Below are positions 5,136 to 34,424 of a stretch of DNA of 64,000 nucleotides, in pieces. Source of the DNA: Nesterenkonia muleiensis (GTDB lineage Bacteria; Actinomycetota; Actinomycetes; Actinomycetales; Micrococcaceae); contig NZ_QWLD01000022.1 in the NCBI RefSeq assembly GCF_003600155.1, positions 1 to 64,000 on the forward strand. Direction: 5' to 3'. How positions within the stretch are numbered: position 1 is the first letter of the stretch; each line of letters opens with the position of its first letter. The notes under the pieces were generated by a model. That model was not told the origin of the DNA, made no database searches, and saw nothing but the letters and a program-made list of their open reading frames with translations. The position numbers were made by a program, and so were the translations under genes.

Positions 5136-5141
5136 GGCTCC

Positions 5142-5198: not shown

Positions 5199-5204
5199 GG
5201 TCCT

Positions 5205-11062: not shown

Positions 11063-11080
11063 AACCACCTGCGCACCGGA

Positions 11081-17574: not shown

Positions 17575-19020
17575 TCAGGGCCTCTCGGTGAAGAGATGCT
17601 GACGCTGGGCGTAGCGCTCGCGGACGAACCGGGTGGGCTCGGCGGTGAAGCTGGTGACCCGTGAGGCCGTCCACTGCGGGGCAGTGTCTGATCCGGCGAG
17701 CACCCACGCCGCCTGAAGGGCCGCGCCGTCGGCAACGTATTCGCCGGGCTCGGGCACCAGGATCTCACGCTCGAAGATGGCCGGGGCGATCTGCTGCACC
17801 GCCGGGTTCTTGGCGGCCCCGCCGATCAGCTGGATCGAGTTCACCGGCACGCCCATACCGGTCATCGCCTCCAGTCCTTCGGCCAACAGGCAGAGCAGGC
17901 CCTCCACGGCGGCCCGGGCCACATCGTGGGGGTTCATCGAGGCCAGCGAGAGCCCCACGAAGGATCCGGTGGCATGAGGGAGGTTGGGAGTCCGCTCCCC
18001 CTCCAGGTAGGGGATCATGGTCAAGCCGTTCGCACCGGGTTCGGCGGCCAGGGCCAGCTCGGCCAGCTGATCGTGGTCCACACCCAGCATCCTGCAGGCG
18101 CCGTCGAGCACCCGGGAGCCGTTGAGGGTCACCGCCAGCGGCAGGAACTCCCCGGTGGCTGAGGCGAAGCCGGTGATCATCCCGGTGGGATCCTGCACCG
18201 GCAGCGGGGATGTCGCGGCCACCACCCCTGAGGTGCCGATGGAGACCGACACGTCTCCGGTGCCCATGCCGATGCCCAGTGCGCCCATGGCATTGTCCCC
18301 GCCGCCGGGGCCCAGGACCAGGCCGCCCCAGCCTCGGGCTGGGTCTCCGGTGCCCACCGCCTGGTTGGCCGATGCCACCCTGGGCAGAACGATCTGGCGG
18401 GCCTGGTCCTCGCGGATCCGCAGCGCTGCCGCCAGCAGATCGTGGCGGTACTGGCCAGCAACAGTGTCGTAGTAGCCGGTGCCGGAGACCTCGGAGCGGT
18501 CGGTGATCAGATCAGCCACGTTCCTCGAGCCGGAGATCTTCCAGGTCAGCCAGTCATGGGGAAGGGCGACGGCGGCCACCCGCCGGGCATTCTCCGGTTC
18601 GGCGTCGGCCAGCCAGCGCAGCTTGGTCACTGTCAGCGAGGGTACTGGCACTGAGCCGACCATCCGCGCCCAGGCCGCCTTGCCGGCGACCTCGCCCCCG
18701 TACTCGTCGATCAGCTGTGCGGCGGCTTCAGCGGAGCGGGTGTCGTTCCACAGCAGTGCATCGCGGATCACCTGGCCGCGTGCGTCCAGGGCCACCATGC
18801 CGTGCTGCTGGCCGCCCACTGCTGCGGCGGCGACGTCGTTCAACCCTCCTGCGGCTTCGACGGCCTCCAGGAAGGCGTCCCACCACGCCTGAGGGTTCAC
18901 CTCGGTGCCCTCCGGGTGCTTGGCGGAGCCGGAGCGGACCAGAGCGCCGGTCTCAGCGTCCCGGATCACCACCTTGCAGGACTGGGTGGATGAGTCGATA
19001 CCAGCCACAAGCGTTGCCAC
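17575..19020 (-). CDS. xylB: Xylulokinase
   Basis: 481 residues, FGGY carbohydrate kinase. Phosphorylates D-xylulose to xylulose 5-phosphate for the pentose phosphate pathway. N-terminal phosphate-binding motif VAGIDSSTQSCKVVI, the substrate region GGQQHGMVALDARG, and a C-terminal QLIGGAAKNPAVQQ nucleotide motif are present. The GTG start has TAGGAG upstream. It follows xylA on the same strand after 181 bases and probably shares its XylR-controlled transcript. Confidence 0.95.
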   Translation of the reverse strand: MATLVAGIDSSTQSCKVVIRDAETGALVRSGSAKHPEGTEVNPQAWWDAFLEAVEAAGGLNDVAAAAVGGQQHGMVALDARGQVIRDALLWNDTRSAEAAAQLIDEYGGEVAGKAAWARMVGSVPVPSLTVTKLRWLADAEPENARRVAAVALPHDWLTWKISGSRNVADLITDRSEVSGTGYYDTVAGQYRHDLLAAALRIREDQARQIVLPRVASANQAVGTGDPARGWGGLVLGPGGGDNAMGALGIGMGTGDVSVSIGTSGVVAATSPLPVQDPTGMITGFASATGEFLPLAVTLNGSRVLDGACRMLGVDHDQLAELALAAEPGANGLTMIPYLEGERTPNLPHATGSFVGLSLASMNPHDVARAAVEGLLCLLAEGLEAMTGMGVPVNSIQLIGGAAKNPAVQQIAPAIFEREILVPEPGEYVADGAALQAAWVLAGSDTAPQWTASRVTSFTAEPTRFVRERYAQRQHLFTERP

Positions 19021-19134
19021 GGATTCTCCTAAGGGTGCAGGCGCAGGGTCACGCGAAAAGTCTAGTGGGTCAGGTCACGCTGACGCCCGGCGCTGTCCTG
19101 ACGAACCCTCTCTGACATCCGGGTCCCGGGCAAA

Positions 19135-19163
19135 CCTGAAGCGTGTGTGCGGGCAGCTTCAGG
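19135..19163 (-). other. Intercistronic hairpin between xylA and xylB
   Basis: CCTGAAGC (19135-19142) and GCTTCAGG (19156-19163) form an 8-bp stem just after the xylA stop. It could attenuate readthrough so that xylA is made in excess of xylB, or protect the xylA message. Confidence 0.45.
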
Positions 19164-19201
19164 GACCGAGCAGGGTTTCCCCGCGGACGGAACCTGCGCT
19201 G

Positions 19202-20380
19202 TCAGCCGATCAGGTGCCTGAGGGCCAGCTGGTTGAGCTTCACGAAGCCATAGTCACGCTCAGCGGCCTTCTCGGCGTCGAACTCCTCGTAGACGGAGGT
19301 GTCGGCTAGGAAGTCGCTGAGCGACTCACCGGGGGCCAGAGTGGGCTGAGCCAGTTCGAAGATCCCGGAAGCCTCAAAGGCAGCCTGAACCTCGGGGTCA
19401 GCACGGTAGGCCTTGGCCTTATCGGCCAGCAGGGTCACCATCTCTGTGTTGGCCTTGGCCGAATCCCAGATGCCTTGGACGTAGTCGGTGCGGGAGGGCT
19501 TGTAGTCGAAGTGCAGCCAGCCGTCATAGGCCGGCCCGCCGTTGGGGAACCCATTGACCAGCAGATCGATGGTGAAGAACGCGCTGGTGAGGTCGCCGTG
19601 GCCGAAGACCAGGTCCTGGTCGTATTTGATCGAGCGCTGACCGTTGAGGTCGATGTGGAAGAGCTTGCCGGCCCACAAGGCCTGGGCGATGCCGTGGGTG
19701 AAGTTCAACCCGGCCATCTGTTCGTGCCCGGTCTCGGGGTTCAGGCCCACGATGTCCCCGTGCTCCAGCTGCGCGATCATGCCCAGGGCGTGGCCGATGG
19801 TCGGCAGCAGGATGTCGCCGCGGGGCTCGTTGGGCTTCGGCTCCAGGGCGACCTTGAGGTCGTAGCCCTTGTCCTTGATGTACCCGGCAACGGTGTCGAT
19901 GCCCTCGGCGTAGCGGTCGTGGGCGGCATTGAGATCCTTGGCGTTGTCGTACTCGGAGCCTTCGCGCCCGCCCCACATCACGAAGGTCTCTGCCCCGAAC
20001 TCTGCGGCCCGGTCCACATTGCGCAGCAGCTTGCTCAGGCCGAACCGGCGCACCGAGCGGTCGTTGGAGGTCAGGCCGCCGTCCTTGAACACCGGGTGGG
20101 AGAAGGTGTTGGTGGTGATCATCTCCACCTTCAGGCCGACCTGGTCGGCAACCTCTTTGAACGTGGCGAAGTACTTCTCCCGTTCGGCGTCATCGGTGCC
20201 GAAGGGAGCGACGTCGTCGTCGTGGAACGTCACACCGGAGGCGCCTGCCTCCTTGAGCTTGGGCAGGTACTCCCAGGGTTCGAAGGCGGGGCGGGAGGCC
20301 TCGCCGAACTGGTCGCGGGCGGTCCATCCCACAGTCCAGAGGCCGAAGGAGAGCTTGTAATCAGCTGGCGTCGAGGCCAT
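19202..20380 (-). CDS. xylA: Xylose isomerase
   Basis: Interconverts D-xylose and D-xylulose. 392 residues from the ATG at 20380, which has GGAGGAACC just upstream; the longer ORF to 20458 would run through the operator. Actinoplanes/Streptomyces-type (class I) enzyme. Active-site segments: [11 protein letters not shown] with the catalytic histidine, [22 protein letters not shown] with metal-binding Glu, and [10 protein letters not shown] near the C-terminus. First gene of the xylAB unit, divergent from the ROK regulator. Confidence 0.96.
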
Positions 20381-20457
20381 GGGGTTCCTCCATGGAGATA
20401 GGTCGGGGATATATGTCGCACCAGACTGCGAAGGCAGCCATGGTGATGTGCGACTCA

Positions 20458-20480
20458 TTTTGTTTCTAGGTGAAACATAA
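20458..20480. promoter_or_regulatory. XylR-type palindromic operator
   Basis: TGTTTC (20461-20466), TAGGT, GAAACA (20472-20477): a perfect 6-bp inverted repeat with a 5-base centre that extends with one mismatch to 9-bp arms. It lies between divergent xylA and the ROK repressor gene, the normal place for a XylR operator, and overlaps a CATAAT candidate -10 for the repressor gene. Confidence 0.75.
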
Positions 20481-20485: not shown

Positions 20486-21892
20486 GTGGGGGCTAAGATC
20501 AAGTCTGTGATGTGGAACGGTTCTGGTTCACTGGCGCGCCTGGGGAGGCGATCGCTGACCCGTGGCCTGGTCACCGGCGGCAGCGGCACCGGTCCCCTGA
20601 GTGACAACAGCCCGCACGACGCTCGGCGCGACGTCCTGGGTCCGCGCCGTGTTGACCGCCCACCGCACCAGAAAGCTCTGCGGCCCGGGGCCCGTCAGGA
20701 GACTCTGCGTGAGGCCAATCTGTTGCTGATCACCGAGGAGATCTTCGCCTCCTCCGCACCGCTCTCCCGTGCCGACCTCTCGGTCCGCACCGGGATGACC
20801 AGGTCTACGGTCTCCCGGCTGGTCGACGATCTTCTGGCGGCAGGTATCGTCCGGGAGGACTCACCGGTCATCGGGCCCGCCCGCGGCCGGCCGGCGGTGC
20901 CGCTGAGGCCGGCGCGGAAGACTCTGGCCGGACTCGGCGTGGAGGTCAACGTCGGCTTCATGGGTGCCAGGGTCCTGGACCTCACCGGAAGCGTATTGGC
21001 CGAAGCGATCGTCGAGGCCGACTACCGGGACTCTGACCCGGTGCAGGTGCTGCACGCAGCCGGTGAGCTGGCGGTGCAGGTGGCTGAGCAGGCCGTCTCA
21101 GCCGGGGCCCGGGTGGTCGGCACAGTGCTGGCCCTGCCGGGTTTGGTGGCCTCGGACGGGCGCTCGCTGCTGCTGGCCCCGAACCTCGGCTGGAAAGATG
21201 TCGATGTGGTGGAGCTGCTCTGTGCCTCAGTGGGGCGGGCGGCGTTCGGTCACTTCGTCACCGTGGTCAACGAGGCCAAGCTCGCCGCGCTCGCGGTGGC
21301 TCAGGAGCTCACCGAGGCCGACGGGCAGGAGCAGACCTTCCTCTACATCTCTGCACAGATGGGCATCGGCTCCGCTGTGGTCATCGACGGCGTGGTGGAG
21401 GCCGGACCGCACGGCTGGGCGGGGGAGCTCGGTCATATGCCGGTGGAGCCCTCGGGGCCTGAGTGCAATTGCGGATCCAGCGGCTGCCTGGAGGTCTACG
21501 CCGGTAAGCACGCCCTGCTGAAAGCTGCTGGCCTCGGCCCTGCGGCCACCGCCGGGGACCTTATGCAGCGGGTGCAGACCCCTGGCCATGGCGCCGGAGA
21601 CCCTTCTGAGGCCGTGGCGCGTGCCGGATGGGCTCTGGGGGTGGCGCTCTCTGGTGCGATGAACGTGTTGGACGTCCACGACATCGTGCTCGGGGGTGAG
21701 TTCGGGCCGCTCACCGAGATACTGCGCCCGCTGATCGAGGAGCAGCTGAGCCGCCGTGTGCTGGCCTCTCCCTGGGCGGAGTTCCGGGTGCGGGAATCGG
21801 GGATCGGATTGGCGCCGGCCACCACCGGCGCAGCGATGCGTGCACTGCGCGCAGTGGTGGAGGCGCCCCAGGCCTGGGTACCCGCTAGATAA
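20486..21892 (+). CDS. xylR: ROK-family xylose repressor
   Basis: Up to 468 residues from a GTG at 20486; a later ATG at 20510 is possible, and the HTH only begins near residue 72, so the true start is uncertain. [23 protein letters not shown]. The ROK sugar-kinase-like domain contains [10 protein letters not shown] and the zinc motif [14 protein letters not shown]. Expected to bind the adjacent palindrome and release it with xylose, controlling xylAB and itself. No xylose transporter gene is present in the window. Confidence 0.88.
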
Positions 21893-22049: not shown

Positions 22050-25000
22050 TCAGGCCTCGAAGCTGCTGCGGCGGCGGACCATGGCCAGCACGCCGAACCC
22101 GATGGCCAGCAGTACCAGGGCGCCGAGGCCCACCAGCCCGATGGTGGCACCGGTCTGTGCCAGGCCCCCGGGCTGCTGCTTGGTGTCATCGTCCGGTTCC
22201 TCGGCAGGGCCGGGATCAGCGGCGACCACGGTCAGCGTGGTGCTGGCGGTGATGCCGGAGTCACCGGTGGCGGTGAACTCGTAGTCTCCGGGTTCCTGGT
22301 CTTCCGGGATGGTGACTGTGCCGGAGACGCTGCCCTCGGCGTCAGCCTCGAATGTGCCCAGCGTGGGGTTGAGGGTCACCGTGACCTGATCCTCGGCGTC
22401 AAAGCCGCTGGCCTCGAAGTCAACCTCTCCGCCTGCGGCGATCTCGGAGACGCTGAGGGTGATCTCGGCGTCTCCGACCTGATCGTCATCGCCGTCCTGG
22501 TCCTCGTCATCATCGGAGGGCGGGGTGGTGGCGTCGTCGCTCGGGCTCGGGGACGGCGCCGGGTCATCGTCATCGCCTGAGGGCGGGGTGCTGGCATCAT
22601 CAGACGGGCTCGGGCTCGGTGCCGGTTCGGTGGGCTCGGGCTCGGTCGGCTCATCCGTCGGCTCCGGCTCCTCGGGATCCACCGGTGCGGGCGGGTCCAC
22701 AGTGCCGCCACCATCGAAGTCATCACCGGTGATGGAGAAGACATCCACGACGCCGGCGTTCGAGAAGTTCGAGACCCACAGGTCCCGGCTGACCGGGTCG
22801 ATGCCGATGTTGATGGCATTGCCGGAGGTCGGCAGCACCAGCTGCGGCTCGAAGTCCTCGGTGTCGTAGACCACGACTTCACGGTCTCCGAGGTTGGCCG
22901 AGTAGAGCAGGCCGCGCTCGCCGTCGATGCTCACGGAGTTGGTGGAGCCGGTCTCAATCACCTCGATGGCCTCTCCGTAGTTCGAGGAGGCAGGGTCACC
23001 GTCGACCACGGTGATCGTCTCGTCGTTCCACGCTGAGACGTAGACCCGCTTGTCCACCGGATCGTAGGTGGGGCGAGCATTGAGGCCCACGGTGGCATCG
23101 AGCTCGGTCACAGCACCGGCGTTGGCCTGCTGGGACTCGGTCTTGCTCGTGCTGGTGGGATCAGACTCCTCCACGGCATCGCCGTCGATGACCCACAGGG
23201 AACCGTCGCCAGCGCCCATGGTGCCCACGTAGATGTTGTTGTGATCCGCATCCACGTCGACCCCGACGACGCCCAGCGGCGTCTGGTCGGCCGTCTTGGG
23301 GATGGCCACCTGGGCCACGACCGCGTCAAGGCCACGTTTGGTGGTGTCCAGCACGGTGATGTACCCGTGACGGGCATCGGGCCCGGAGACGCTTCCGAAG
23401 CGCCCATCACCGAGGTTGGTCACATAGGCCCGGTTGGTCTCCGGGTTGACCGCGACACGACGCGGGCCGTCGAAGACGGGTTCATCGTCCTCATAGGCCC
23501 AGATGCGGTCACCATCAGTGGGCTCGCCCTGGTCCGCGGAGTAGAGCACGACGCCGCCGCCGTAGCCGTAGTCCGCGTATCCGTTGCGCTGACGTGCGGT
23601 GGTGGTGATCACCGAGTTGCTGCTGGTGTCCACCGCCACCCCGTAGGGCCCGAAGTGTGTCCGGATGGTGGAGAGTGAGGTGACGTCCTCACCAGCTTCT
23701 GACCAGTCGAGGGGATCGCTCTCCGTCCCCGACCCGTCATTGAGGGTCAGCCCGGTGAAATCGTGGTTGCGGACCAGCTCCTTGGAGTCCACGTCGAACT
23801 CGACCAGTTTCGAGCTGGACTCGCGAACGGTGATCTCCCCGTCCTCGCCTCTGGTCTCCTGACGCCACTGGGTGTCAGCTAGGTAGACGCTGCGATTCAC
23901 CTCGTCGAGGGCCAGCTGGTAGCCGTTGTTCACGCCGGTGTCCAGGCGATCGACCTCGTAGTCGAGGTCCGATTCGATCATCGCCGGGGCCTCACCGGTG
24001 ATGGTCACGGTGCCCGCCGCGCCGCCGCGGGCGACGTCGTTCTCGCCCAGCGAGCCGGTCAGGAGGATGATCTCGTGCTCACTGCCGGTCTGCCAGGGCT
24101 CTTCCAGATCAGAGTTGTAGGGGGTCGGGAAGTCGAGGGAAACATCGAAGCTTCCGTCCTCGTCAGCTTCGATGATCTCCCATACCCCGTCCAGCCCGTC
24201 GGCCAGCGGATGCGGAGTCACCTCCGGGGTCGGGCCGCCGTCGCCGTCCAGGCGCACGGCGATCACCGAGCCGGCGTCGCCGTCGAAGTTCACCCAGCCC
24301 TCGCCGCGGATATCCAGTGACTCGCCATATTCCCACTGTTCGGGAATCCACACCTCGGCACCGTCGTTGTATGCGCGGGTCGGCTCCTCGACATCGTCTT
24401 CCTCATCATCGTCGGCCTCGTAGTCGAAGCTCCAGGAGGTGACGGCATCCTCAGTCAGCACGTAGTCCGCGGCAGCCTCTGCGGTGATCTCCAGGGTCCC
24501 GCCCTCCGGGATCTCCACCTGGCCCTGGTGGCTGTAGGTCACGCCCTCGACCTCAGGAACTGTGACGGTGTTGCCCTCACGGGCCGGCTCCTGCGGACTG
24601 ACTGCAGTGAGCTCCTCCTCCTCGGCCGCCACCACGGTGAACTCGGCGTGGGGGTTGCGGATGACGTCGTTGTCGCCCAGCGAGCCGCTGAGGACGCGCA
24701 CCAGGTGCTCGGTCTCGGCATCCCAGTCCTGCGGGTCGATGTCCGAGTTGTCCTCATCGGGGAACGGAATGCTCACCTCCCAGCTGCCGTCGTCTTCGGC
24801 CTCGAAGATCGCATGCAGCCGGGTGTCTGCGGTCGGCTCGCCGGTCACCGGGTTGATGACCTCCCGAGTGGTGTTCACCGCACCGGGAGCAGGGGCGTCC
24901 AGCAGGACCGCTCCCACAGAGGGGCTCTCACCGTCCTGGCCGAACCAGTTCTCTCCGGAGATGACGATCTCCTCGCCGTGCTCCACCTCGGTGGGGGCGA

Positions 25001-25181
25001 TGAGCACAGCACCGTCAGGAGTCTCGACGCTCTGGGTCTCCGCGTGGGCCGCCGACGCCATGACGCCGACCAGGCCGCTGGAGAAGAGTGTGGCGGCCAG
25101 CCCGGAGGCCAGAACCCTTCGCATTCTTTGCGGCCGCGGGCTGCGATGGCGCTGGGGAGGCGCCGGTACAAGCGTGTCCAT
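22050..25181 (-). CDS. Sortase-anchored surface protein with beta-propeller
   Basis: 1043 residues. Signal peptide (basic start, hydrophobic to about 40, AHA cleavage near 45-47). Two copies of a recurrent beta-domain (about 57-183 and 276-396) with the pattern GExxxIxGExW, DGSW/F and LTGSLGENDV. Then a YncE/YVTN-type beta-propeller (about 400-835) with repeats such as DPVDKRVYVSAWND and NPETNRAYVTNLGD, an acidic Pro/Thr/Ser linker, an Ig-like module (about 900-990), and LAQTG (1007-1011), a membrane helix and an RRR tail: a sorting signal of the LAXTG kind used by class E sortases. No sortase gene is in the window. Divergent from the siderophore importer with an iron-box-like site in its promoter; probably a wall-linked component of iron capture. 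Function otherwise unknown. Confidence 0.85.
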   Translation of the reverse strand: MDTLVPAPPQRHRSPRPQRMRRVLASGLAATLFSSGLVGVMASAAHAETQSVETPDGAVLIAPTEVEHGEEIVISGENWFGQDGESPSVGAVLLDAPAPGAVNTTREVINPVTGEPTADTRLHAIFEAEDDGSWEVSIPFPDEDNSDIDPQDWDAETEHLVRVLSGSLGDNDVIRNPHAEFTVVAAEEEELTAVSPQEPAREGNTVTVPEVEGVTYSHQGQVEIPEGGTLEITAEAAADYVLTEDAVTSWSFDYEADDDEEDDVEEPTRAYNDGAEVWIPEQWEYGESLDIRGEGWVNFDGDAGSVIAVRLDGDGGPTPEVTPHPLADGLDGVWEIIEADEDGSFDVSLDFPTPYNSDLEEPWQTGSEHEIILLTGSLGENDVARGGAAGTVTITGEAPAMIESDLDYEVDRLDTGVNNGYQLALDEVNRSVYLADTQWRQETRGEDGEITVRESSSKLVEFDVDSKELVRNHDFTGLTLNDGSGTESDPLDWSEAGEDVTSLSTIRTHFGPYGVAVDTSSNSVITTTARQRNGYADYGYGGGVVLYSADQGEPTDGDRIWAYEDDEPVFDGPRRVAVNPETNRAYVTNLGDGRFGSVSGPDARHGYITVLDTTKRGLDAVVAQVAIPKTADQTPLGVVGVDVDADHNNIYVGTMGAGDGSLWVIDGDAVEESDPTSTSKTESQQANAGAVTELDATVGLNARPTYDPVDKRVYVSAWNDETITVVDGDPASSNYGEAIEVIETGSTNSVSIDGERGLLYSANLGDREVVVYDTEDFEPQLVLPTSGNAINIGIDPVSRDLWVSNFSNAGVVDVFSITGDDFDGGGTVDPPAPVDPEEPEPTDEPTEPEPTEPAPSPSPSDDASTPPSGDDDDPAPSPSPSDDATTPPSDDDEDQDGDDDQVGDAEITLSVSEIAAGGEVDFEASGFDAEDQVTVTLNPTLGTFEADAEGSVSGTVTIPEDQEPGDYEFTATGDSGITASTTLTVVAADPGPAEEPDDDTKQQPGGLAQTGATIGLVGLGALVLLAIGFGVLAMVRRRSSFEA

Positions 25182-25242
25182 GCACAGCTTCTTTCTCTCA
25201 AGGTTGAGTAGTTCGACATATCCAGGGATCCTGGATCAGGAC

Positions 25243-25261
25243 TTAGCATAGCCTTAGTATG
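25243..25261. promoter_or_regulatory. DtxR/IdeR-like iron box 1
   Basis: Begins TTAGCATAGCCT; matches the degenerate IdeR/DtxR 19-mer consensus at 13 of 19 positions by eye, best in its left half and centre. On the minus strand it overlaps a TATGCT candidate -10 (19 bases after TTGATT) of the surface protein gene. Confidence 0.5.
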
Positions 25262-25534
25262 AGCAGATAAATCAAGACTGTGACGCAAAAAAGTCACAAA
25301 TGGTTCACATAATGAGGTTCGACGGTGGCCAGATGATGGATAAATACCTGTTGATATGCGGATCTCACGATTGCCGCGTGTCATGCGATGTTGACGAGGT
25401 GCAACTCACTCAAGCAGGGTAATAAGCGACATTTATCTCATGAAAACCCTCGTACAGCCGATCCAGTGATACATATCACGCTCTGCTTCGTGCGAGAATT
25501 TGACGTAACATCAGTCATGAATATGCCATCAGAT

Positions 25535-25553
25535 GACTATTAGGCTCTACTTA
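25535..25553. promoter_or_regulatory. DtxR/IdeR-like iron box 2
   Basis: Centred on TTAGGCT with CTTA at the right end; about 12 of 19 consensus positions. It lies just downstream of the TTGACG/TATGCC promoter-like pair of the importer operon, where a repressor would block initiation. Weaker than box 1. Confidence 0.4.
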
Positions 25554-25606
25554 GTAGTTTCCTTTAGGCGCTTTTTGTTCTCATTGACGTATGATCGGGG
25601 GTCACC

Positions 25607-26629
25607 TTGGGCATCAGCCGACGCCTGACACGACTGACCGCTGCCATGGCAGCAGCGTCGGTCCTTGCGCTGTCGGCATGCGGCGGCAGCGCGGAGCTCG
25701 CGGCTGGCGGTGCGGAGCCTGATTCCGTCGGCGGCACCCGCGTCGTCGTCGATGTCGAAGGCACAGAGGTCGAGGTCCCGGAGGCTCCGCGCCGTGTGGT
25801 GACGCTCAGTGAGCCGACCCTGGACGGAGTGCTGGCGTTGGGGCTGGAGCCGATCGGGACGGTCACCGGACGCGGCCAGGCCACAGTGCCGGCATATCTT
25901 CAGGACGTGGCCGGTGACCTCCCGGTCCTCGGCAGTGTGGCCCAGCCCAACTTCGAGGCTATCGGCGCCGCAGGGCCGGACCTGATCCTGGTGGACGGCA
26001 CCTCGGTCAACAACAACCCGGATGTGATCGCCGCACTGCGGGAGATCGCCCCGGTCGTCTACACCGGATATGCCGGAGGCGACTGGAGACTCAACTTCGG
26101 CCTGACCGCCGAGGCTCTGGGGAAGGAAGACCAAGCAGAAGAGATCATCGCTGACTACGACGAGCGCGCCGCAGCGATCGCCGCAGAGCTTGAACCGGAG
26201 TACGGAGACAAGACGTTCAGCATTGTCCGCTGGCAGGGCGGCGGGGCTGCCACCATCCTTCAGGAACTTCCGCCTGGAGCAGCCCTTGAGGACCTCGGAC
26301 TGGCGCGGCCGCCCAGTCAGGACATGCGCGGCCGCGGACACTCCAACCCGGTCTCCCTGGAGAACCTAGAGGAGATCGACGCTGACTACATGTTCTTCGG
26401 AACCCTCGGCGGCTCCAGCGTGGACAACCCGCAGGCAGGGGGGTCCGCTGATGTTGAGGAGGCCGAGTCGGCTCTTCAGACCGCTGTCGAGACCCCCGGC
26501 TTCAGCCAGCTCAAGGCCTATCAGGAGGGCAATATCATCCCGGTGGACGGCTCGGCATGGACTTCCACCGGTGGCCCGCTGCTGATGACCCGCATTATTG
26601 AAGACGTCCGGGAGGAACTCCTCAGATGA
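25607..26629 (+). CDS. Iron-siderophore ABC transporter substrate-binding lipoprotein
   Basis: 340 residues, TTG start with GGGGGT upstream. Lipobox LALSAC with the lipidated Cys at 25. Class III periplasmic-binding fold: RRVVTLSEPTLDGVLALGLEPIG at the start of lobe 1, PDLILVDGTSVNN, and a C-terminal lobe ending VREELL. The family binds ferric siderophores, haem or B12; the Fes esterase in the same operon argues for a ferric catecholate. First gene of the seven-gene rightward operon; its stop overlaps the next start (ATGA). Confidence 0.9.
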   Translation: MGISRRLTRLTAAMAAASVLALSACGGSAELAAGGAEPDSVGGTRVVVDVEGTEVEVPEAPRRVVTLSEPTLDGVLALGLEPIGTVTGRGQATVPAYLQDVAGDLPVLGSVAQPNFEAIGAAGPDLILVDGTSVNNNPDVIAALREIAPVVYTGYAGGDWRLNFGLTAEALGKEDQAEEIIADYDERAAAIAAELEPEYGDKTFSIVRWQGGGAATILQELPPGAALEDLGLARPPSQDMRGRGHSNPVSLENLEEIDADYMFFGTLGGSSVDNPQAGGSADVEEAESALQTAVETPGFSQLKAYQEGNIIPVDGSAWTSTGGPLLMTRIIEDVREELLR

Positions 26630-29277
26630 CAGCCAACGCACCGGTCCCGCACAGGACGTCGAGGCTGCAGCGCCTGCTGACGCTGCTGGTCACCACACTG
26701 CTGCTGATCTCGGCGTCAGCGGTCGCAGCCGGACCGGTCCACGCACAGCAGATCGCCGACGCCCTGGGCAGCGATGCGGTCCTGACCGGACCCGAGGAGG
26801 TGGAGTACGGCGAGGCGATTCAGATCTCCGGAACCGGCTTCCTCACCTCCGACGGGGAGCCCTCGGTGATGACCGTGCTGCTCGACGCGAGGTTCTCCGG
26901 GGATCCGGACACCGTCTACACCACACGCGATGTCCTCAACCCGGTCACTGTTGAGAGCGACGGCGACAAGCGGCTGCACGCGGTGGTGGAGGCAGCGGCC
27001 GACGGCAGTTGGGAGGCCACCATCCCGTTCCCCACTGCGGAGAACTCCACCGCCGGAGCCGGCACCCCGGCGTGGACTCCCGGCAGCAGCCATGAGATCC
27101 GTGTGCTCACCGGCAGCTACCGGACCGGGGACCAGATCCGGAGTATGCCCCTGGAGTTCACGATCAGCGGCGGCGACGGCCAGCAGCCGGGCGAAGGCCC
27201 CGATCCAGATGAGAGCCCCGAGCCCAGCGATCCGGCTCAGACTCCTGAACCCGGTGAGACCCCCCAGCCCGGAGCCCCGGAGTGGCCGCATGTCACCGTC
27301 ACCCACGGCTCCGGCGCCGTTGCCCACATCGAACGGGACGTGGGTCTGGCCGAGGGTGAGACGCTGCGGATCCGCGGGCAGGGATGGACGAACCAGGAGC
27401 GCACCAGTGGCTCCACCATCGCCATCAAGCTCAACTCCTCACAGACCGCACAGTACACCCGCGACGGCAACGACGTCGTCGTCCACCCCTCCGCCGGAGG
27501 TGATGACACCATCTGGGCGCTGCTGGCCCCGCAGAATCCAGAGGACCACCAGTACGTCTTCGAGATCGACGACGACGGGTCCTTCGACATCGAGCTCCCG
27601 GCTCCGGAGGTGCTCAGCGCCGGTCAGTACCTGAGCGTCCTGTTCCAGTCCGGACTGTTTCAGCCCGGTGACGTCACCCGGGCCGTGACCTCTGAGCCGC
27701 TGGTGGTCGGCGGAGTCCCCTTTGCCGATGAGACCGGGCTGGAGGCGGAGGTCACCTGCGTGCCCTCGGCAGGCCAGCCGACAGTGGAGATCGAGAATCC
27801 TGCCGCTGGCTTCGGGGAGGAGCTCATCGTCCACGGGCGCGGCTGGTGCCACCCGGAGGACGATCGCGGAGCCTCCGTGCTGGCCATCAAGATCGACGAG
27901 GGTGCCTACAGCCGGCTCGATGACTCTCTGCACCAGAACCGGACTATCTGGTACATCGTCAACGACGCCGACCCCGCCACCGGGGACTGGACCGCCCGTA
28001 TCGACCTGCCCGACGGCACCGCCGCCACCTCCGACCCTGCTCTCCCCGAAGGCGCCCACACCCTGCGGCTGCTCACCGGCTCGCTCAAGCCCGGCGATGC
28101 GCCCCGGACGGTCCTCTCCGAAGAGTTCGTCATAGGTCAGTACCAGCCGCTGGGCCCGCCGGAGCCGCCTGAGTACGGCCAGGACCTCACCGAGGACGCC
28201 CAGGGGCCGGTCAGCATCACCCAGTCCGCCCGTTACATCGACGTGACCATTCCCGGTGCCCAGGACGGAGACTGGATCTACCTGATGGGCTTCGCCGAGG
28301 ACGGTTCGCCGCGCACCTGGTGGGGCGGGACTTGGTTCCAGGTGGAGGACCAGCGGGTGCGGGCACCACTGGCCGAGACCGTGATGCCGCTTCCTGAGGA
28401 GCCGACTAAGCTCGCAGTGCTTTCCGGGAACCAGGGTGAGGCGGGACTGCTGCTGGGCTGGAAGTGGATCCATGGATCCTCGGTCCAGGGACCACCGGAC
28501 TCAGCACCGAGCGGAGACGGGGCGCCTACACGCAGCGATGAGTCCAGCACCGGCTCATCGCAGCCACGGAATCAGGTGCGCAGCACAACAGACTCATCCC
28601 CCGGCCGGCAGCCGGGGACCGGCTACGGAGAAACCCAGCACTACGGAATCGTGCAGAGCCCGCTGCAGAATCTTGGGCAGCCACTCGCGCAGCAGACCTC
28701 ATGGCACCAGGCACCTGGAGAATGGGTCCAGGAGCAGTGGGCGCCGGAGCTCGAGCAGCAGCCGGGTGCCCCTACAGCGGACCCGGCGCCGCCCCACGAG
28801 GAAGACCTCACCGAGGAGACCGCCGGAGAGCTCACCGTGTGGCTGGAGGACCAGGAGCTTGTTCTCCAGTTCCCCGGGGCAGACTCTGGCGACTGGCTCT
28901 TCCTCCACCTCTTCCCAGGCGCTCAGCCGCTGGGCTGGATCGAGGTCGACGACGAGCACCAGGTCCGCATCGATGTGACCGGAATGCCGCCGGGGGAGTT
29001 CCGCTTCTCCGTGCAGGACCGTGAGGGGGAGCTGATCGGTTGGGCGGAGCTCATCCACGAGGAGCACCAGGAGACCGGCACTGAACAGACCGCCGGCTCT
29101 GTGCTGTCACCACCAGAGACCGACGATCAGCCCGGGCAACAGCAGCAGGCCCCAGCAGTGTCATCGGGAGGGCTTCTGGGCCATAGCGACTGGGTGCTGA
29201 TCTCACTGGGCGCCGGGGCTCTCTTCGGCGTTGCCCTGGCGATGTTCCTCACCGGCCGACGAATACAGACGGCATAA
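26626..29277 (+). CDS. Secreted membrane-anchored multi-domain surface protein
   Basis: 883 residues. Signal peptide ending near VHAQQ (38-42). Three copies of the recurrent beta-domain: about 50-181, 236-360 and 385-504; each has GExLxIxGxGW, and the third has SVLAIKIDEG and a likely disulfide pair (Cys378, Cys408). A Pro/Glu-rich linker follows the first copy. Two shorter related modules (about 520-615 and 720-800; GDWIYLMGF and GDWLFLHLF) come next, then a Gln/Pro linker and one C-terminal helix (about 850-873) with a GRRIQTA tail. No LPXTG-like motif, so it is anchored by the helix. Embedded between the binding lipoprotein and permease genes with overlaps or short gaps, so tied to siderophore uptake. 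No known family recognised. Confidence 0.85.
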   Translation: MTANAPVPHRTSRLQRLLTLLVTTLLLISASAVAAGPVHAQQIADALGSDAVLTGPEEVEYGEAIQISGTGFLTSDGEPSVMTVLLDARFSGDPDTVYTTRDVLNPVTVESDGDKRLHAVVEAAADGSWEATIPFPTAENSTAGAGTPAWTPGSSHEIRVLTGSYRTGDQIRSMPLEFTISGGDGQQPGEGPDPDESPEPSDPAQTPEPGETPQPGAPEWPHVTVTHGSGAVAHIERDVGLAEGETLRIRGQGWTNQERTSGSTIAIKLNSSQTAQYTRDGNDVVVHPSAGGDDTIWALLAPQNPEDHQYVFEIDDDGSFDIELPAPEVLSAGQYLSVLFQSGLFQPGDVTRAVTSEPLVVGGVPFADETGLEAEVTCVPSAGQPTVEIENPAAGFGEELIVHGRGWCHPEDDRGASVLAIKIDEGAYSRLDDSLHQNRTIWYIVNDADPATGDWTARIDLPDGTAATSDPALPEGAHTLRLLTGSLKPGDAPRTVLSEEFVIGQYQPLGPPEPPEYGQDLTEDAQGPVSITQSARYIDVTIPGAQDGDWIYLMGFAEDGSPRTWWGGTWFQVEDQRVRAPLAETVMPLPEEPTKLAVLSGNQGEAGLLLGWKWIHGSSVQGPPDSAPSGDGAPTRSDESSTGSSQPRNQVRSTTDSSPGRQPGTGYGETQHYGIVQSPLQNLGQPLAQQTSWHQAPGEWVQEQWAPELEQQPGAPTADPAPPHEEDLTEETAGELTVWLEDQELVLQFPGADSGDWLFLHLFPGAQPLGWIEVDDEHQVRIDVTGMPPGEFRFSVQDREGELIGWAELIHEEHQETGTEQTAGSVLSPPETDDQPGQQQQAPAVSSGGLLGHSDWVLISLGAGALFGVALAMFLTGRRIQTA

Positions 29278-29289
29278 AGGAGACGTGTC

Positions 29290-30309
29290 ATGATCGCAGC
29301 AATCAGCAGAACCCTGGCAGGTCTGGCCGCACTCGTTCTGGCCTGCCTGATCGCCACCGCACCGGCACAGTCCATCCCGCCGGACGGTGCGGGTCCGGAC
29401 ACCCCGGGAACCTCCTCCACCACCAGCCCCACCAGCGGCCTGCGACCCGGCGACACGCTGAACTTCCGGGTGAGCGGCTTTCCCGGCGGAGAGACCCTTT
29501 ACATCAAGATCGACGACGGTCTGAACTGCTCCCAGGCCGCAGTGCACGGGGCTTGTGTCTACCATCAGCAGGCGATCCCCGCATCCGGCACTGTCAGCGG
29601 CTCCATCGTGCTGCCCCATGACATCAGCCCGGGCCAGCACTGGCTGCGCTTTCTGGCCTCGGAGGAGATGCGGGACAGCGGCGGCTCTGTCATCGGCACC
29701 CAGGGGTACACGTTGCGCGGACAGAACTTCACCGTCGCCTCCGGCTCGCAGGGTTCAGGAGGATCCTCCTCGAACGGAGGGTCCGGCAACGGCTCATCCT
29801 CCGGGGGCGGTTCCAGCAGCAGCGGCGGTGGAGGCGGCAGCTCATCCTCCGGTGGCGGAAACACGATCAGCACCACCCCCGGCGGACAGGGCGGGGGCCA
29901 GCTGAACGGTGCCTCCGGGAACACCGTCAACATCTCACCGGACATGCAGCAGCCCGACGGCGGATCCGCGGAAGCGGGTCAGGTCCAGGACGGTGTCCTC
30001 GACCAGGAGCAGGGCGAGGGTGCGCTTGCCGGGGAGGCTCTGGAGGTGGACTGGTCAAGCCACGAGAACGACGACGTTGACACCGATCAGGACGAAACGG
30101 ACAGTGGCGCAGCGGCACAGGCAGCGCAAGAGGCCCGCGAGTTTCTCGACCAGAGCCAGGACACCGAGGACGCTGATGCCCTTGCCGCAGCTCCTTCCGC
30201 CGGTACCGGCGGTTTTCCCTGGATCGGCGTTCTGGTACTCACAGTTCTGCTCGGCGCAGGAGGGCTTATCGTGGCGACGATGGTGCAGCGCCGCCGTGCT
30301 GAAGCATGA
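29290..30309 (+). CDS. Small membrane-anchored surface protein with Ser/Gly stalk
   Basis: 339 residues. Signal peptide ending APAQS near 27. One beta-domain (about 51-150) of the same type as in the two larger surface proteins: LRPGDTLNFRVSGFPGG, LYIKIDDG, two cysteines (80, 89) and a PGQHWLRFLAS segment. Then a Ser/Gly repeat stalk (about 150-200), an acidic region (about 250-300) and a C-terminal helix followed by QRRRAEA. Ribosome site AAAGGAGACG precedes the ATG; the stop overlaps the permease start. It looks like a short receptor held just above the membrane, possibly handing ligand to the lipoprotein. Confidence 0.83.
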   Translation: MIAAISRTLAGLAALVLACLIATAPAQSIPPDGAGPDTPGTSSTTSPTSGLRPGDTLNFRVSGFPGGETLYIKIDDGLNCSQAAVHGACVYHQQAIPASGTVSGSIVLPHDISPGQHWLRFLASEEMRDSGGSVIGTQGYTLRGQNFTVASGSQGSGGSSSNGGSGNGSSSGGGSSSSGGGGGSSSSGGGNTISTTPGGQGGGQLNGASGNTVNISPDMQQPDGGSAEAGQVQDGVLDQEQGEGALAGEALEVDWSSHENDDVDTDQDETDSGAAAQAAQEAREFLDQSQDTEDADALAAAPSAGTGGFPWIGVLVLTVLLGAGGLIVATMVQRRRAEA

Positions 30310-31304
30310 CCACCGCAGTTCGGGTGGCGTGGCTTGCGGCCGCGCTGAGCCTCACCCTGCTGCTCTGCGCGCTGAGCATCTCCATCGGTTCGCGCAGCAT
30401 AGCGGTCCTCGATGTCTGGGGGTTCCTGCTGCGGCCTGAGGAGACGGCAGAGGCAGCCGTGGTCACCCAGCTGCGGGTGCCGCGGACGCTGATCGCCGTG
30501 GTCGTCGGCGCCGCACTTGCGGTGGCGGGGTCGCTGATGCAGTCCCTGACCCGGAATCCGCTGGCCGACCCAGGAATTCTGGGTATCAACGCCGGGGCCT
30601 CGCTGGCGGTGGTGATCGCGGTGGCGGTGACCGGGATCGCCTCGATCATGTTCTACATGTGGTTCGCCTTCCTCGGCGCCGCGGCCGCCGCGGTCGGGGT
30701 CTACCTGCTGGGCAGTGGCCGCCGCCGCACGGCCACACCGGCCCGGTTGGCCCTGGCCGGTGTGGCGATCACCGCTGCCCTGACGGCCCTGGTGCAGACC
30801 ATCATTCTCACCAACCAGGAGGCATTCAACGAGTTTCGCTTCTGGACAGCCGGATCGCTGGAGGGCCGGGGCCTGGAGATCACCGGCGCCGCGGCGCCGT
30901 TCGTGGCGGCGGGACTGTTGCTGGCACTGCTGCTGGCCCCGGCGCTCAACGCCCTGGCCCTCGGCGAGCAGACCGGGGCGGCTCTCGGGGTGAGGGTCCG
31001 GCGCACCCGGGCGCTGACGTTTCTTGCGGTGACGCTGCTCTGCGGAGCAGGCACCGCCGCGGTCGGCCCCATCGCCTTCGTCGGACTCGGGGTCCCCTTC
31101 CTCGCCCGGGCCGCTGTGGGCCCAGATCAGCGCTGGTCCGTGCCGCTGTGTCTGCTCCTGGGCCCGGCCATGCTGCTGGCCGCTGACGTGGCCGGTCGGG
31201 TGGTGATCGCACCCCAGGAGGTGCAGGCCGGGATCATCACCGCTCTGGTGGGAGCCCCGCTGTTTATCACGATCGTGCGCCGTCGCAGGATTGAGGCACT
31301 GTGA
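30306..31304 (+). CDS. FecCD-type siderophore permease 1
   Basis: 332 residues with about 9-10 membrane helices. Family hallmarks: LRVPRTLIAVVVGAALAVAGS, QSLTRNPLADPGILGINAG and a C-terminal GVPFLARAAVGPD region. Forms the channel with the second permease and couples to the ATPase. ATG start overlaps the preceding stop. FepD/FhuB-half-like subunit. Confidence 0.92.
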   Translation: MTTAVRVAWLAAALSLTLLLCALSISIGSRSIAVLDVWGFLLRPEETAEAAVVTQLRVPRTLIAVVVGAALAVAGSLMQSLTRNPLADPGILGINAGASLAVVIAVAVTGIASIMFYMWFAFLGAAAAAVGVYLLGSGRRRTATPARLALAGVAITAALTALVQTIILTNQEAFNEFRFWTAGSLEGRGLEITGAAAPFVAAGLLLALLLAPALNALALGEQTGAALGVRVRRTRALTFLAVTLLCGAGTAAVGPIAFVGLGVPFLARAAVGPDQRWSVPLCLLLGPAMLLAADVAGRVVIAPQEVQAGIITALVGAPLFITIVRRRRIEAL

Positions 31305-32392
31305 GCGCCTCCTCGAAGGCCACTCCCGTTGGGACCGTTTCACATCCTGGCCAAGGCCGTAGCCGGCGCCATGTGGTGCTCCGCGCCTCGGGCCGATCGC
31401 TGAAGGTCGAACGCCGCACCCTGAGCGTCTGCGCGGTGATGCTGGCGGTCTGTGCCGGGTTGGGCACCGCGGGTCTGCTGCTGGGTGACTATCCGCTGAC
31501 GGTCAGGCAGGTGATCGGCTATCTCTTCGGCGATCACACCGACCCCCTGGCGGGGTTCTTTGTCCGGGAGCAGCGGCTGCCGCGGGTTCTGCTGGCAGTT
31601 CTGGTCGGCGCGGCGCTGGGCGTGTCCGGCCAGGTCTTCCAGTCACTGTCCGGGAACCCGTTGGGCAGTCCTGACATCATCGGATTCACCACCGGCTCGG
31701 CGACCGGAGCGGTGCTGCAGATCATTGTCTTCGACGCCGGGCCCGCAGGGGCCGCCGGAGGAGCTCTGCTCGGCGGTTTCGCCACTGCTCTGGTGGTGTA
31801 TCTGCTGGCCCACCGCGGCGGGGTCAGCGGTCTGCGGCTGGTGCTGGTGGGCATCGGCATCGGTCTGATGCTCGGGGCTCTGAACACACTGCTGGTGGCC
31901 CGGGCCTCCCTGGTCGCTGCCCAGACCGCCGCGCAATGGCTGGCCGGCTCGCTCAATGCCACCACGTGGTCGCAGGTCGGGCTCGTCTCAGCCGCGCTTG
32001 TCCTGCTGCTTCCGATGGCGCTGGTGCGCGGACGCACTCTCACCGCTATGACCCTGGGGGACGCTTCGGCGGCGGCGCTAGGCATCCGGCCAGAGCGCCA
32101 GCGGCTGGTCCTGGTGGTCTGCGGCGTCGCGCTTGTCGCGGTGGCCACTGCCGCCTGCGGCCCCATCGCGTTCATCGCGCTGGCCGCCCCGCAGCTGGCC
32201 CGCCGCCTCACCCGGTCATCAGGTGCCGGTCTGCTGCCTGCGGCCCTGATGGGTGCCTGTCTGGTGCTCGGCAGCGACATTCTGGCCCAGCGGCTCTTCG
32301 CCCCCACCCAGCTCGCCGTGGGAGTGGTCTCCGGCACTCTGGGCGGCATCTATCTGATCTGGCTGCTTGCTATGGAAAGGAGCCGACTGTGA
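31301..32392 (+). CDS. FecCD-type siderophore permease 2
   Basis: 363 residues, FepG-like partner of the preceding gene. A basic 45-residue cytoplasmic N-terminus precedes the first helix. Signature LRLPRVLLAVLVGAALGVSGQ followed by QSLSGNPLGSPDIIGFTTGS, and IALAAPQLARRLTRSSG near the C-terminus, the coupling region with the ATPase. GTG start overlaps the stop upstream; its own stop overlaps the ATPase start (GTGA). Confidence 0.92.
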   Translation: MSASSKATPVGTVSHPGQGRSRRHVVLRASGRSLKVERRTLSVCAVMLAVCAGLGTAGLLLGDYPLTVRQVIGYLFGDHTDPLAGFFVREQRLPRVLLAVLVGAALGVSGQVFQSLSGNPLGSPDIIGFTTGSATGAVLQIIVFDAGPAGAAGGALLGGFATALVVYLLAHRGGVSGLRLVLVGIGIGLMLGALNTLLVARASLVAAQTAAQWLAGSLNATTWSQVGLVSAALVLLLPMALVRGRTLTAMTLGDASAAALGIRPERQRLVLVVCGVALVAVATAACGPIAFIALAAPQLARRLTRSSGAGLLPAALMGACLVLGSDILAQRLFAPTQLAVGVVSGTLGGIYLIWLLAMERSRL

Positions 32393-33213
32393 CAGCTGCG
32401 GAGATGCCGACTCACCAGGCCCGACTCGCCGCTCGGAGACTGAGCGTGGGATATGACTCGCGGAAGGTCCTGGACGGTATCGCGGTGGAGATTCCCAACA
32501 ACACGTTCAGCGTGATCGTGGGCCCCAACGCCTGCGGGAAATCGACCTTGGTGAAAGCACTGGCCCGGGTGCTGCGGATCCAGTCAGGGGAGGTGCTGCT
32601 GGATGGCTCGCCGCTGTCCCAGTACACGCCCAAGGAGGTCGCCCGCCGGCTGGGCATGCTTCCCCAGGCGCCTCACGTCCCGGACGGGATTCTGGTGGAG
32701 GATCTCGTGGCCCGCGGGCGGTATCCGCATCAGGGTCTGTTCCGCCAGTGGAGCCAGGAGGACGCCGACGCGGTCGACACCGCGTTGCGCAGGGCGCGTG
32801 TTGAGCAGCTGCGCGACCGGCTGCTCACCGAACTCTCCGGAGGCCAGCGGCAGCGGGTGTGGATCGCGATGGCGCTGGCCCAGATGACCCCGTTGCTGCT
32901 GCTGGATGAGCCGACCACCTTCCTCGACATCTCCCACCAGGTGGAGGTGCTCAATCTCTGCCGGCGTCTGCAGCGGGAGGGAACCACCGTAGTGGCTGTC
33001 CTCCACGACCTGAACCTCGCCTTCCGCTACGCCGACCATGTGATCGTGATGCGCAGCGGGGGCATCGTTGCCCAAGGCCCCCCCCGGGAGGTGATCTCCG
33101 CGGAGCTGATCGAGAAGGTCTTCGACCTCTCCTGCCGGATCATCGAGGATCCGGAGACCGGCACCCCGCTGGTCATCCCCCAAAACCCTGACACTGCGGC
33201 GAAGGGAAGCTGA
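32389..33213 (+). CDS. Siderophore ABC transporter ATPase
   Basis: 274 residues from a GTG with GGAAAGGAG upstream; an open frame extends far upstream but lies inside the permease gene. Walker A GPNACGKST (45-53; Ala replaces the usual Gly), signature LSGGQRQRVWIAMAL, Walker B LLLLDEPTTFLD and switch His in VLHDLNLAFRY are all present. FepC/FhuC class. Powers import through the two permeases. Overlaps the esterase gene by one base. Confidence 0.95.
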   Translation: MTAAEMPTHQARLAARRLSVGYDSRKVLDGIAVEIPNNTFSVIVGPNACGKSTLVKALARVLRIQSGEVLLDGSPLSQYTPKEVARRLGMLPQAPHVPDGILVEDLVARGRYPHQGLFRQWSQEDADAVDTALRRARVEQLRDRLLTELSGGQRQRVWIAMALAQMTPLLLLDEPTTFLDISHQVEVLNLCRRLQREGTTVVAVLHDLNLAFRYADHVIVMRSGGIVAQGPPREVISAELIEKVFDLSCRIIEDPETGTPLVIPQNPDTAAKGS

Positions 33214-34424
33214 TGACCCTCCACCGCCCCGGGGCGAGGAACACCCTGCGCCGCCCACCCAAGCTGCCCCGGCCTGAGCCTGCCCCCCGGGTACCAGTAC
33301 CGGCGCTGCCGAAGAACCACCGCACCCAGCCCTGGCCGCTGATCAGCGAGAACCACGACGACGCCGGGGCCGGGACCGCCACTGTCACCTTCCTCTACGA
33401 ATCCCGCCGCGCCAAGACTGTCCTCCTGTTCGTCAACCGGCTCACCGATGAAAGAGACATCACCCGCAGCGAGATGGAGTACTTCGGTGACGGGCTGTGG
33501 GCACTCAGCTACCGCATGGACACCGACTGGCGGGCCAGCTACGCCTTCCTGGAGCACACCGGCTGCGGGGAACCCCCGTGGCGGACCGAGACGGACCAGC
33601 GCACCCTCCGCACCCTCCTGGACTCCGGCCGGTGCGATCCCCGAAACCAGCTGACCTGTCTGAACTCGGGAGGAACACCGTTCTCTGTGGTCGAACTCCC
33701 CGATGCCCCTCCGCAGCCACACCGCATCGAACTCCGGCACCCTAGCCTGCCGCAGAGCGCGGTGATCGCCGCAGAGCACAGTGTCGCCACTGCGTCGGGG
33801 CACCGGAGAGTCTGGGCACATCCGGTGGGGCGGCCAGGAGCTGCGGCCCCGCTGGTACTGCTGCTCGACGGCGAAACCTGGTTAACCCATCACCGCTTCC
33901 AGCTCAGTCTGGACAGTGCCCGCCAGGCAGGCGAACTCCCCGATCTATGGGCGGTGTTCATCAGCTCCGGCGCCAGGTCCGAGCGCTGGCAGTACCTGGG
34001 CCATCATGATGGTGCAGCCCGGGATCTGCCGGAGTCCATCCTGCCCTGGGCCCAACGGACGCTGGAGGCCGGCTACGAGCCGGCCTCCACTGTGGTGACC
34101 GGGCACAGTCTCGGAGGTATCAGCGCACTGTGGGCCCTGGCCCAGCACCCGGAGAGCATCGGGGCGGTCCTGGCTCAGTCGCCGTCGGTCTGGACCGACC
34201 CCGACGGCGCCTTGGCAGCGCATCTGCAGCAGACTTCCGGGCGCATTCGACTGGAGGTCGGCCGTCAGGAATGGGCCATGGCGGACCAGGTGCGGGAGCT
34301 GGCGGATGCGCTGGGCAGCACAGGCGCGCAGGTGGAGTACGCCGAGTTCAACGGAGGGCACGACTTTGCCTGCTGGCGCGGGGGCCTCATTGAGGGGATC
34401 ACTGCTCTGCTCGCTCCCCGTTGA
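33213..34424 (+). CDS. fes: Enterochelin esterase-like siderophore hydrolase
   Basis: 403 residues: an N-terminal Fes-type domain (to about 190; ALSYRMDTDWRASYAFL) and an alpha/beta hydrolase esterase domain with nucleophile Ser299 in GHSLGG and His383 in NGGHDFACW. Fes enzymes cleave ferric trilactone catecholates in the cytosol so that iron can be released. No signal peptide is visible, consistent with cytosolic action after import. Last gene of the operon; its final 26 bases overlap the end of the convergent GntR gene. Confidence 0.9.
   Translation: MTLHRPGARNTLRRPPKLPRPEPAPRVPVPALPKNHRTQPWPLISENHDDAGAGTATVTFLYESRRAKTVLLFVNRLTDERDITRSEMEYFGDGLWALSYRMDTDWRASYAFLEHTGCGEPPWRTETDQRTLRTLLDSGRCDPRNQLTCLNSGGTPFSVVELPDAPPQPHRIELRHPSLPQSAVIAAEHSVATASGHRRVWAHPVGRPGAAAPLVLLLDGETWLTHHRFQLSLDSARQAGELPDLWAVFISSGARSERWQYLGHHDGAARDLPESILPWAQRTLEAGYEPASTVVTGHSLGGISALWALAQHPESIGAVLAQSPSVWTDPDGALAAHLQQTSGRIRLEVGRQEWAMADQVRELADALGSTGAQVEYAEFNGGHDFACWRGGLIEGITALLAPR

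Follow-up and report, generated by a model that had tools for sequence, protein, structure and literature searches.

A FecCD-type siderophore importer of Nesterenkonia muleiensis encoded with three surface proteins that may relay ferric catecholates

Analysis of a 64,000-nucleotide stretch of Nesterenkonia muleiensis DNA (positions 1 to 64,000 of contig NZ_QWLD01000022.1, assembly GCF_003600155.1; hereafter, the window) focused on an eight-gene region in which a siderophore importer is encoded together with three surface proteins, designated A, B, and C. In many actinobacteria, the genes for B and C are linked to those of a single clade of siderophore-binding lipoproteins and of the associated FecCD permeases. 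Judging from sequence, the three proteins probably belong to the neighboring iron importer as its surface components, and an iron-regulated surface system that captures and relays ferric catecholates is the most likely interpretation of the locus.

Coupling of the surface proteins to one importer clade

All eight genes were re-found at 22050-34424, where the original prediction had placed an overlapping operon and a divergent gene for an LAQTG protein. The gene for A (22050-25181, minus strand) diverges from that of the lipoprotein, with 425 bases between the two starts. The plus strand carries, in order, the genes for the lipoprotein (25607-26629), B (26626-29277), C (29290-30309), FecCD permease 1 (30306-31304), FecCD permease 2 (31301-32392), a FecE/FepC-type ATPase (32383-33213), and a Fes-like enterochelin esterase (33213-34424); neighbors among these seven overlap by 1 to 10 bases or lie 12 bases apart (spacings of -4, +12, -4, -4, -10, and -1 bases). 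The lipoprotein (Peripla_BP_2, 72.6 bits), the permeases (FecCD, 309.1 and 255.7 bits), and the ATPase (ABC_tran, 104.5 bits) all exceeded the Pfam cut-offs, which identifies a FecCD-type ATP-binding cassette (ABC) importer for siderophores. The esterase did so for Enterochelin_N (79 bits; cut-off, 27.1) and Esterase (72.2 bits), and an alignment with the solved enzyme 2b20 covers its GHSLGG and GGHDFACWRGGL stretches. For the lipoprotein, the nearest solved structures are YfiY (108.9 bits) and SirA (72.8 bits), and it resembles YclQ as well. Scores against the NCBIfam equivalogs of enterobactin systems were below cut-off for permease 2 (319.5 of 422 bits), the ATPase (314.3 of 497), Fes (NF007758, 185.6 of 222), and the lipoprotein (57.2 of 205). 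The genome holds seven FecCD matches across four contigs.

Scanning of named genomes with a B alignment yielded 35 loci, which were located via two peptide motifs of D3, the third domain of B; four of them (L023, L025, L031, and L032) are near-duplicates. Genes were counted as open frames because a simple gene caller missed some real ones. At fixed thresholds, these loci contain B (33 loci), C (32), the lipoprotein (29), permease 1 (27), permease 2 (27), the ATPase (26), and Fes (16), and 20 have a propeller protein akin to part of A, as found by a hidden Markov model (HMM) grown by iteration inside the loci without an outside negative control. The lipoprotein, B, C, and both permeases occur together in 24 of the 35. 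The expectation that homologues usually lie beside siderophore importers was thus borne out, with an importer in 27 of the 35 loci and most of the others ending at contig ends. Among the eight permease-less loci, L027, L028, L030, L031, and L038 stop at contig ends, B falls below threshold in L041, and L021 has weaker FecCD and ATPase matches ∼5 kb off. In Peptidiphaga gingivicola (L014, 9866-13855), B and C homologues were observed with no importer within 10 kb and a TRCF/Mfd-type helicase gene nearby.

Searches at the family level gave a similar picture. They scored only the first candidates of each genome (11 to 14 for C, at class and family level; 5 to 7 for the lipoprotein), so misses are possible. 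C matched in 19 of 395 same-family genomes at an E value of ≤1e-20, two of them from the genus of the window and 17 from genus g117 (Rothia-type); it was not found in 20 listed genomes of the window's genus. Permease 1 adjoins C in all 19 C-positive genomes, and B is present in 17; of the two B-less loci, L102 leaves no space for B between C and the lipoprotein, and L100 has an unmatched gene there. A lipoprotein search of the same 395 genomes retrieved 20 at ≥365 bits and then none down to 131 bits; 19 of these 20 are the C-positive ones, and the remaining one is a 65%-complete g117 genome. Within the window's own genome, for which all candidates were scored, the C domain occurs at this locus only.

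In the lipoprotein tree, the window sequence groups with that of Nesterenkonia ebinurensis and next with Microbacteriaceae (89/88, unstarred), not with Rothia of its own family. Horizontal transfer of the system is possible from this pattern but not firmly supported. In N. ebinurensis (L008, 12921-12957), permease 2 and Fes lie ∼35 bases apart, with no ATPase gene between them or elsewhere in the locus; either another ATPase must serve or the system is not working.

Domains of A, B, and C

Structure prediction, profile comparison, and alignment bore out the original prediction of one shared beta-domain, with two copies in A, three in B, and a single one in C. The AlphaFold model of B, an 883-residue secreted, membrane-anchored protein, was built from a 60-row alignment (mean predicted local distance difference test score, 80.8) and has five well-folded beta domains followed by a C-terminal helix that is probably transmembrane (residues 853 to 876; 29182-29253). 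Pairwise profile comparison of D1 (residues 40 to 181; 26743-27168), D2 (222 to 361; 27289-27708), and D3 (378 to 505; 27757-28140) gave 99.7% for D1-D2, 100% for D1-D3, and 99.8% for D2-D3, indicating homology; the domain of C reached 96.8% with D3, 93.7% with D1, and a weak 58.4% with D2. D3 is the best conserved of these domains, and its cysteines C378 and C408, the only ones in B, are invariant across all 60 aligned rows. An HMM made from seven C-family sequences alone also matched B-family frames in L020 (E value, 2.6e-12) and L042 (1.3e-8). The two copies in A, at approximately residues 50 to 190 (24612-25034, minus strand) and 268 to 400 (23982-24380, minus strand), are 50% and 36% identical to D1, respectively. 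Profile comparison and sequence identity thus indicate that the shared domain is homologous across the three proteins, and the copies share ancestry. The earlier inventory nonetheless overlooked the propeller of A and a second repeat family in B: D4 (residues 517 to 616; 28174-28473) and D5 (722 to 812; 28789-29061) reach 99.5% with each other and only 0.4 to 3.5% with D1 to D3 and C.

In A, a secreted wall protein of 1,043 residues, the shared domains precede a YncE-like beta-propeller (approximately residues 405 to 820; 22722-23969, minus strand), a Pro/Asp-rich spacer, an immunoglobulin (Ig)-like domain, and an LAQTG motif at residue 1007 (22149-22163, minus strand), which is followed by a hydrophobic helix and an RRR tail, as in sortase-anchored wall proteins. 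The propeller scored below the NF052280 (YncE) cut-off of 400 bits in A (30.8 bits) and also in its counterparts of L016 (97), L037 (81.1), and L015 (60.2).

C is a secreted, membrane-anchored protein of 339 residues with a C-terminal helix that is probably transmembrane (residues 311 to 338; 30220-30303). Its domain (residues 38 to 152; 29401-29745) is predicted to be a seven-stranded Ig-like sandwich that superposes on the neocarzinostatin family, and the best structural matches of the model, within a tie, are chromoproteins of this type, which carry an aromatic molecule. Kinship of C to these enediyne chromoproteins stays below threshold. The window copy scored 17.3 bits against PF00960 (cut-off, 25) and 19 against NF040680 (cut-off, 86); profile searches against solved structures returned chance-level rows only, with no chromoproteins; and the single C sequence placed C-1027 third (E value, 0.075), behind two unrelated CD276 rows at 0.016. 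Members of the neocarzinostatin family have two disulfides and a bound chromophore. Unlike them, C is tethered, adjoins a siderophore importer, and can form one disulfide at most, since the mature protein holds only C80 and C89. The VIA structural-match lists contain no HtaA, NEAT, or Znu structures, an absence that excludes nothing.

No Pfam or NCBIfam family exceeded its cut-off in A, B, or C of the window, and hence no characterized non-iron domain was matched at that level; hits to TIG, MG2, DnaJ_C, BapA_N, and GEVED were all under cut-off and were rejected. Homologues of B (at least 96 besides itself) and of C (at least 29) are mostly nameless or "hypothetical protein," with precomputed I-set Ig domains on six of 97 B-family rows.

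These features bear on the strongest competing explanation, in which A, B, and C are structural, their Ig-like stalks and propeller scaffolds positioning or shielding the lipoprotein-permease complex in the wall without contacting any ligand. The fold is a common Ig-like sandwich, B can be absent, general Ig-like families (GEVED and TIG) exceed their cut-offs in some A-type homologues, and tandem-copy relatives (L045) do so for GEVED and GxPGS Ig-like families. However, D3 keeps a set of polar and aromatic residues (K422, D424, N438, W442, H478, R481, and R494, each in 58 to 60 of 60 rows). The coupling to a single lipoprotein clade and the resemblance of C to a family of carrier proteins likewise argue against a structural role, which we regard as unlikely.

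Catechol-siderophore synthesis genes and the probable ligand

Genes adjoining the operon in other genera point to the ligand. In seven of eight Rothia-type stretches, Fes runs on into EntE- and EntF-like genes. The order is lipoprotein-B-C-permeases-ATPase-Fes-EntE-EntF in L098, L131, L132, and L099, and L100, L102, and L133 follow it except that B is missing at the threshold applied (the genome of the latter, G394, has B at 48 bits); L097 has no EntE there and contains a propeller protein. The EntE-like genes of Rothia scored 543.8 to 570.2 bits (cut-off, 723.55), and the two nonribosomal peptide synthetase (NRPS) pieces tested, both cut by the stretch end, had EntF as their top match (443.8 and 289 bits; cut-off, 2400). 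In the named set of 35 loci, all six from Rothia (L022 to L025, L031, and L032) and three of five from Nocardioides (L017, L030, and L036; not L020 and L042) are flanked by EntE, EntF, or isochorismate-type genes, and an NRPS lies in the flank of Corynebacterium L037. No such synthesis gene passed the threshold in the flanks of 25 loci, some of which are incomplete. The presence of isochorismate synthase says little because it occurs in 10 of 10 genomes tested, including that of the window (233.7 bits, over cut-off), and its profile matches 14 of 14 controls (7 over cut-off); it was used only for its position, 1 to 2 kb from the R. nasimurium-type cluster. The part of PMC7190385 consulted reports a catechol-siderophore cluster in all 45 mined genomes of three Rothia species and enterobactin from Rothia mucilaginosa, and in that text the words "transporter," "permease," and "surface" do not occur. 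Similarly, the consulted part of PMC13347742 describes enterobactin-like clusters in Rothia, including the "Candidatus R. avicola" isolate of L022, and does not use the terms "surface protein" and "ABC transporter."

Since catechol-siderophore synthesis genes adjoin most Rothia and some Nocardioides loci examined, a tri-catecholate is the likely ligand; from the Fes match and these synthesis-type neighbors elsewhere, we infer transport of a ferric catecholate. In the window's genome, no IucA/IucC match and no synthesis cluster were found (NRPS genes were not searched there), so that the simplest interpretation for this organism is import of foreign catecholates. The original prediction had suggested that the system may scavenge foreign siderophores; this applies to Nesterenkonia at most, because synthesis genes adjoin the operon in Rothia and some Nocardioides loci. 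A strong 2,3-dihydroxybenzoate (DHB)-AMP ligase match on contig C34 of the same genome (572.5 bits) was discarded as a synthesis candidate because the adjoining gentisate dioxygenase and salicylate-type genes make it look degradative. Its score equals those of the EntE-like genes in Rothia and is therefore not in itself proof of DHB activation, the argument for which rests in Rothia on the NRPS next door. The surrounding salicylate/gentisate-type degradation cluster (G000:C34:7095-15291, L110) illustrates how easily an acyl-adenylate ligase is miscalled as siderophore synthesis.

At the class level, 22 of 296 genomes have a C-type match, and all five with an E value of <1e-10 have it at siderophore loci. 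One is the window itself, and in another, G228, the operon is accompanied by a propeller protein. In G064, a 20-kb span holds EntE, EntF, a lipoprotein, Fes, a free-standing propeller, and a surface protein in which the C-like domain is repeated ten times. The two stretches read from G079 contain EntE and EntF together with a propeller and a lipoprotein, and G123 has a pair of Fes-like genes in addition to EntE, EntF, a lipoprotein, and a permease. Locus L127 encodes a 1,152-residue protein with ten C-like repeats (3002-6460) and a 450-residue secreted propeller (10891-12243) among EntE/EntF-like genes.

The weaker matches are one argument for binding of another ligand by the domains, be it heme, an iron protein of host or microbial origin, or a noncatecholate siderophore. 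Of these 17 genomes, 10 have the match next to a FecE/HmuV-type ATPase. Both ATPases tested from such loci are heme-type over cut-off, HtaA exceeds its cut-off on a nearby protein in two of the loci and is below it in a third, and the Ig domain of these heme-type operons is homologous to C (97.6% in profile comparison). The likeness of the lipoprotein to YfiY, SirA, and YclQ and the Corynebacterium copies without an adjacent Fes over threshold could be read in the same way. Nevertheless, 16 of the 35 loci have Fes, catechol-synthesis-type genes occur in several lineages, and neither HtaA nor NEAT was matched by A, B, or C, all of which makes another ligand rather improbable. The C-homologous Ig domain lies in unannotated proteins of HtaA-bearing, heme-type operons at L092 (9483-10559) and L094 (9699-11027).

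Retention of the cell's own secreted siderophore by the surface proteins, or its extracellular processing by a lactonase-like propeller acting on the trilactone, with no delivery to the lipoprotein, would fit the loci that adjoin synthesis genes and the weak Lactonase matches of the propeller homologues in L037 and L042, but it is very improbable given the 25 named loci without flanking synthesis genes over threshold, the A-, B-, and C-type proteins kept in L008, L009, L012, and L013 among them, and the outcome of the synthesis-gene search in the window's genome.

The proposed relay and its relation to known systems

We therefore favor, with reasonable though not high confidence, the view that A, B, and C form the extracellular part of a dedicated importer of ferric tri-catecholates of the enterobactin type. 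The shared domains, Ig-like and in C similar to chromoproteins that carry small molecules, would bind the ferric siderophore. A would capture it at the wall surface; B, with three copies and a long stalk, and C, with one, would hand it to the lipoprotein; the FecCD permeases and the ATPase would import it; and the Fes-like esterase would cut the trilactone and free the iron. Of the wall-to-membrane catecholate relay in the original prediction, the coupling of surface proteins to an importer of the catecholate type is supported; ligand binding, the direction of transfer, and the order from A through B and C to the lipoprotein are what we infer. A strict link between surface proteins and catecholate loci is weakened by one genome, G133, in which EntE, EntF, and Fes occur with a relative of the lipoprotein (226.8 bits) but without a C-type match or a propeller in the 20 kb read.

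A DtxR/IdeR-type regulator probably represses the operon at plentiful iron in many carriers, as suggested by boxes counted up to 600 bases from a roughly guessed lipobox. When scored against a 19-position DtxR/IdeR consensus, sites with at least 15 matches precede the lipoprotein gene in 15 of 29 loci, compared with 1.5 predicted from the same-loci background, which includes the sites themselves; at 14 matches or more, the figures are 19 of 29 and 2.6. A cruder shuffle test gave a P value of ≤0.05 in 12 of 30 loci. Strong boxes were found neither in the five Corynebacterium loci (11 to 14 of 19) nor in the window (12 to 13), where the degenerate box upstream of A (25243-25261, 13 of 19) is not above chance (shuffle P value, 0.295) and another (25535-25553, 12 of 19) lies close to the strong-box position of related loci. 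Elsewhere in the window, translations suggest carbohydrate-kinase-like and sugar-isomerase-like genes (17575-20458) adjoining a gene for an ROK-type regulator (20486-21892).

By analogy, the system would most likely work like Isd, Hta, or Znu with other domains, although the domain tests made place it in none of them. The Isd system of Firmicutes uses wall- and membrane-anchored NEAT repeat domains, a lipoprotein, and an ABC importer for heme. The locus shares with Isd the anchored repeat domains beside the lipoprotein and ABC importer of one iron source but differs from it in serving a siderophore importer and in having no NEAT match in A, B, and C among Pfam matches listed up to an E value of 1 (HMMER filters drop most above 0.1). 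In the Hta/Hmu heme system of Corynebacterium, anchored HtaA domains are encoded in an operon with a FecCD-type importer. That system is likewise actinobacterial, and some heme operons carry the C-related Ig domain; in contrast, A, B, and C have no HtaA (PF04213) match up to an E value of 1, and hhalign comparison of D1 to D5 and C with four HtaA-type segments gave 0.1 to 0.7%, so that HtaA is unrelated to any domain tested. The original view that the domain is neither NEAT- nor HtaA-type was therefore sustained. Importer clusters with mutually similar membrane and wall proteins also occur in the anchored-repeat ABC transporter families and in the Znu zinc system of Corynebacterium diphtheriae, in which ZnuF and ZnuG are anchored to the wall and bind zinc, according to the part of PMC12445094 consulted. 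Znu differs in its metal and transporter class, and A, B, and C show no anchored-repeat wall-domain match up to an E value of 1, the ATPase scoring 132.9 bits against TIGR03771 (cut-off, 268.8). FepBDGC-Fes and the Rothia enterobactin cluster resemble the operon in FecCD permeases, lipoprotein, and Fes, and most of the Rothia-type operons read run into EntE/EntF-like genes; A, B, and C are additions here, and the consulted text of PMC7190385 does not mention surface proteins for the Rothia cluster.

A more specific proposal, to which we give somewhat less than even weight, is that of an undescribed actinobacterial surface siderophore relay. Its carrier domain would be a tethered relative of the neocarzinostatin fold, a secreted carrier of small molecules that became an iron-siderophore chaperone or arose from one, combined with the unrelated D4/D5 family and a wall-anchored YncE-like propeller and associated with one importer clade, enterobactin-type synthesis neighbors, and a heme counterpart in Hta/Hmu operons. 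A literature search by title and abstract opening, without most subscription papers, retrieved no description of such a siderophore system.

In textbook Gram-positive siderophore uptake, the lipoprotein alone meets the ferric siderophore, and wall-to-membrane relays are known for heme. Wall proteins that bind their cargo have been reported for zinc, as far as the consulted part of PMC12445094 goes. If true, the proposed relay would offer a testable account of the passage of siderophores through thick actinobacterial walls and would suggest a role for the mostly nameless homologues of B and C. It would also establish a genomic link between siderophore loci and YncE-like propellers, the E. coli member of which is presented in the consulted portion of PMC5120174 as Fur-regulated, seven-bladed, secreted, and associated with DNA binding.

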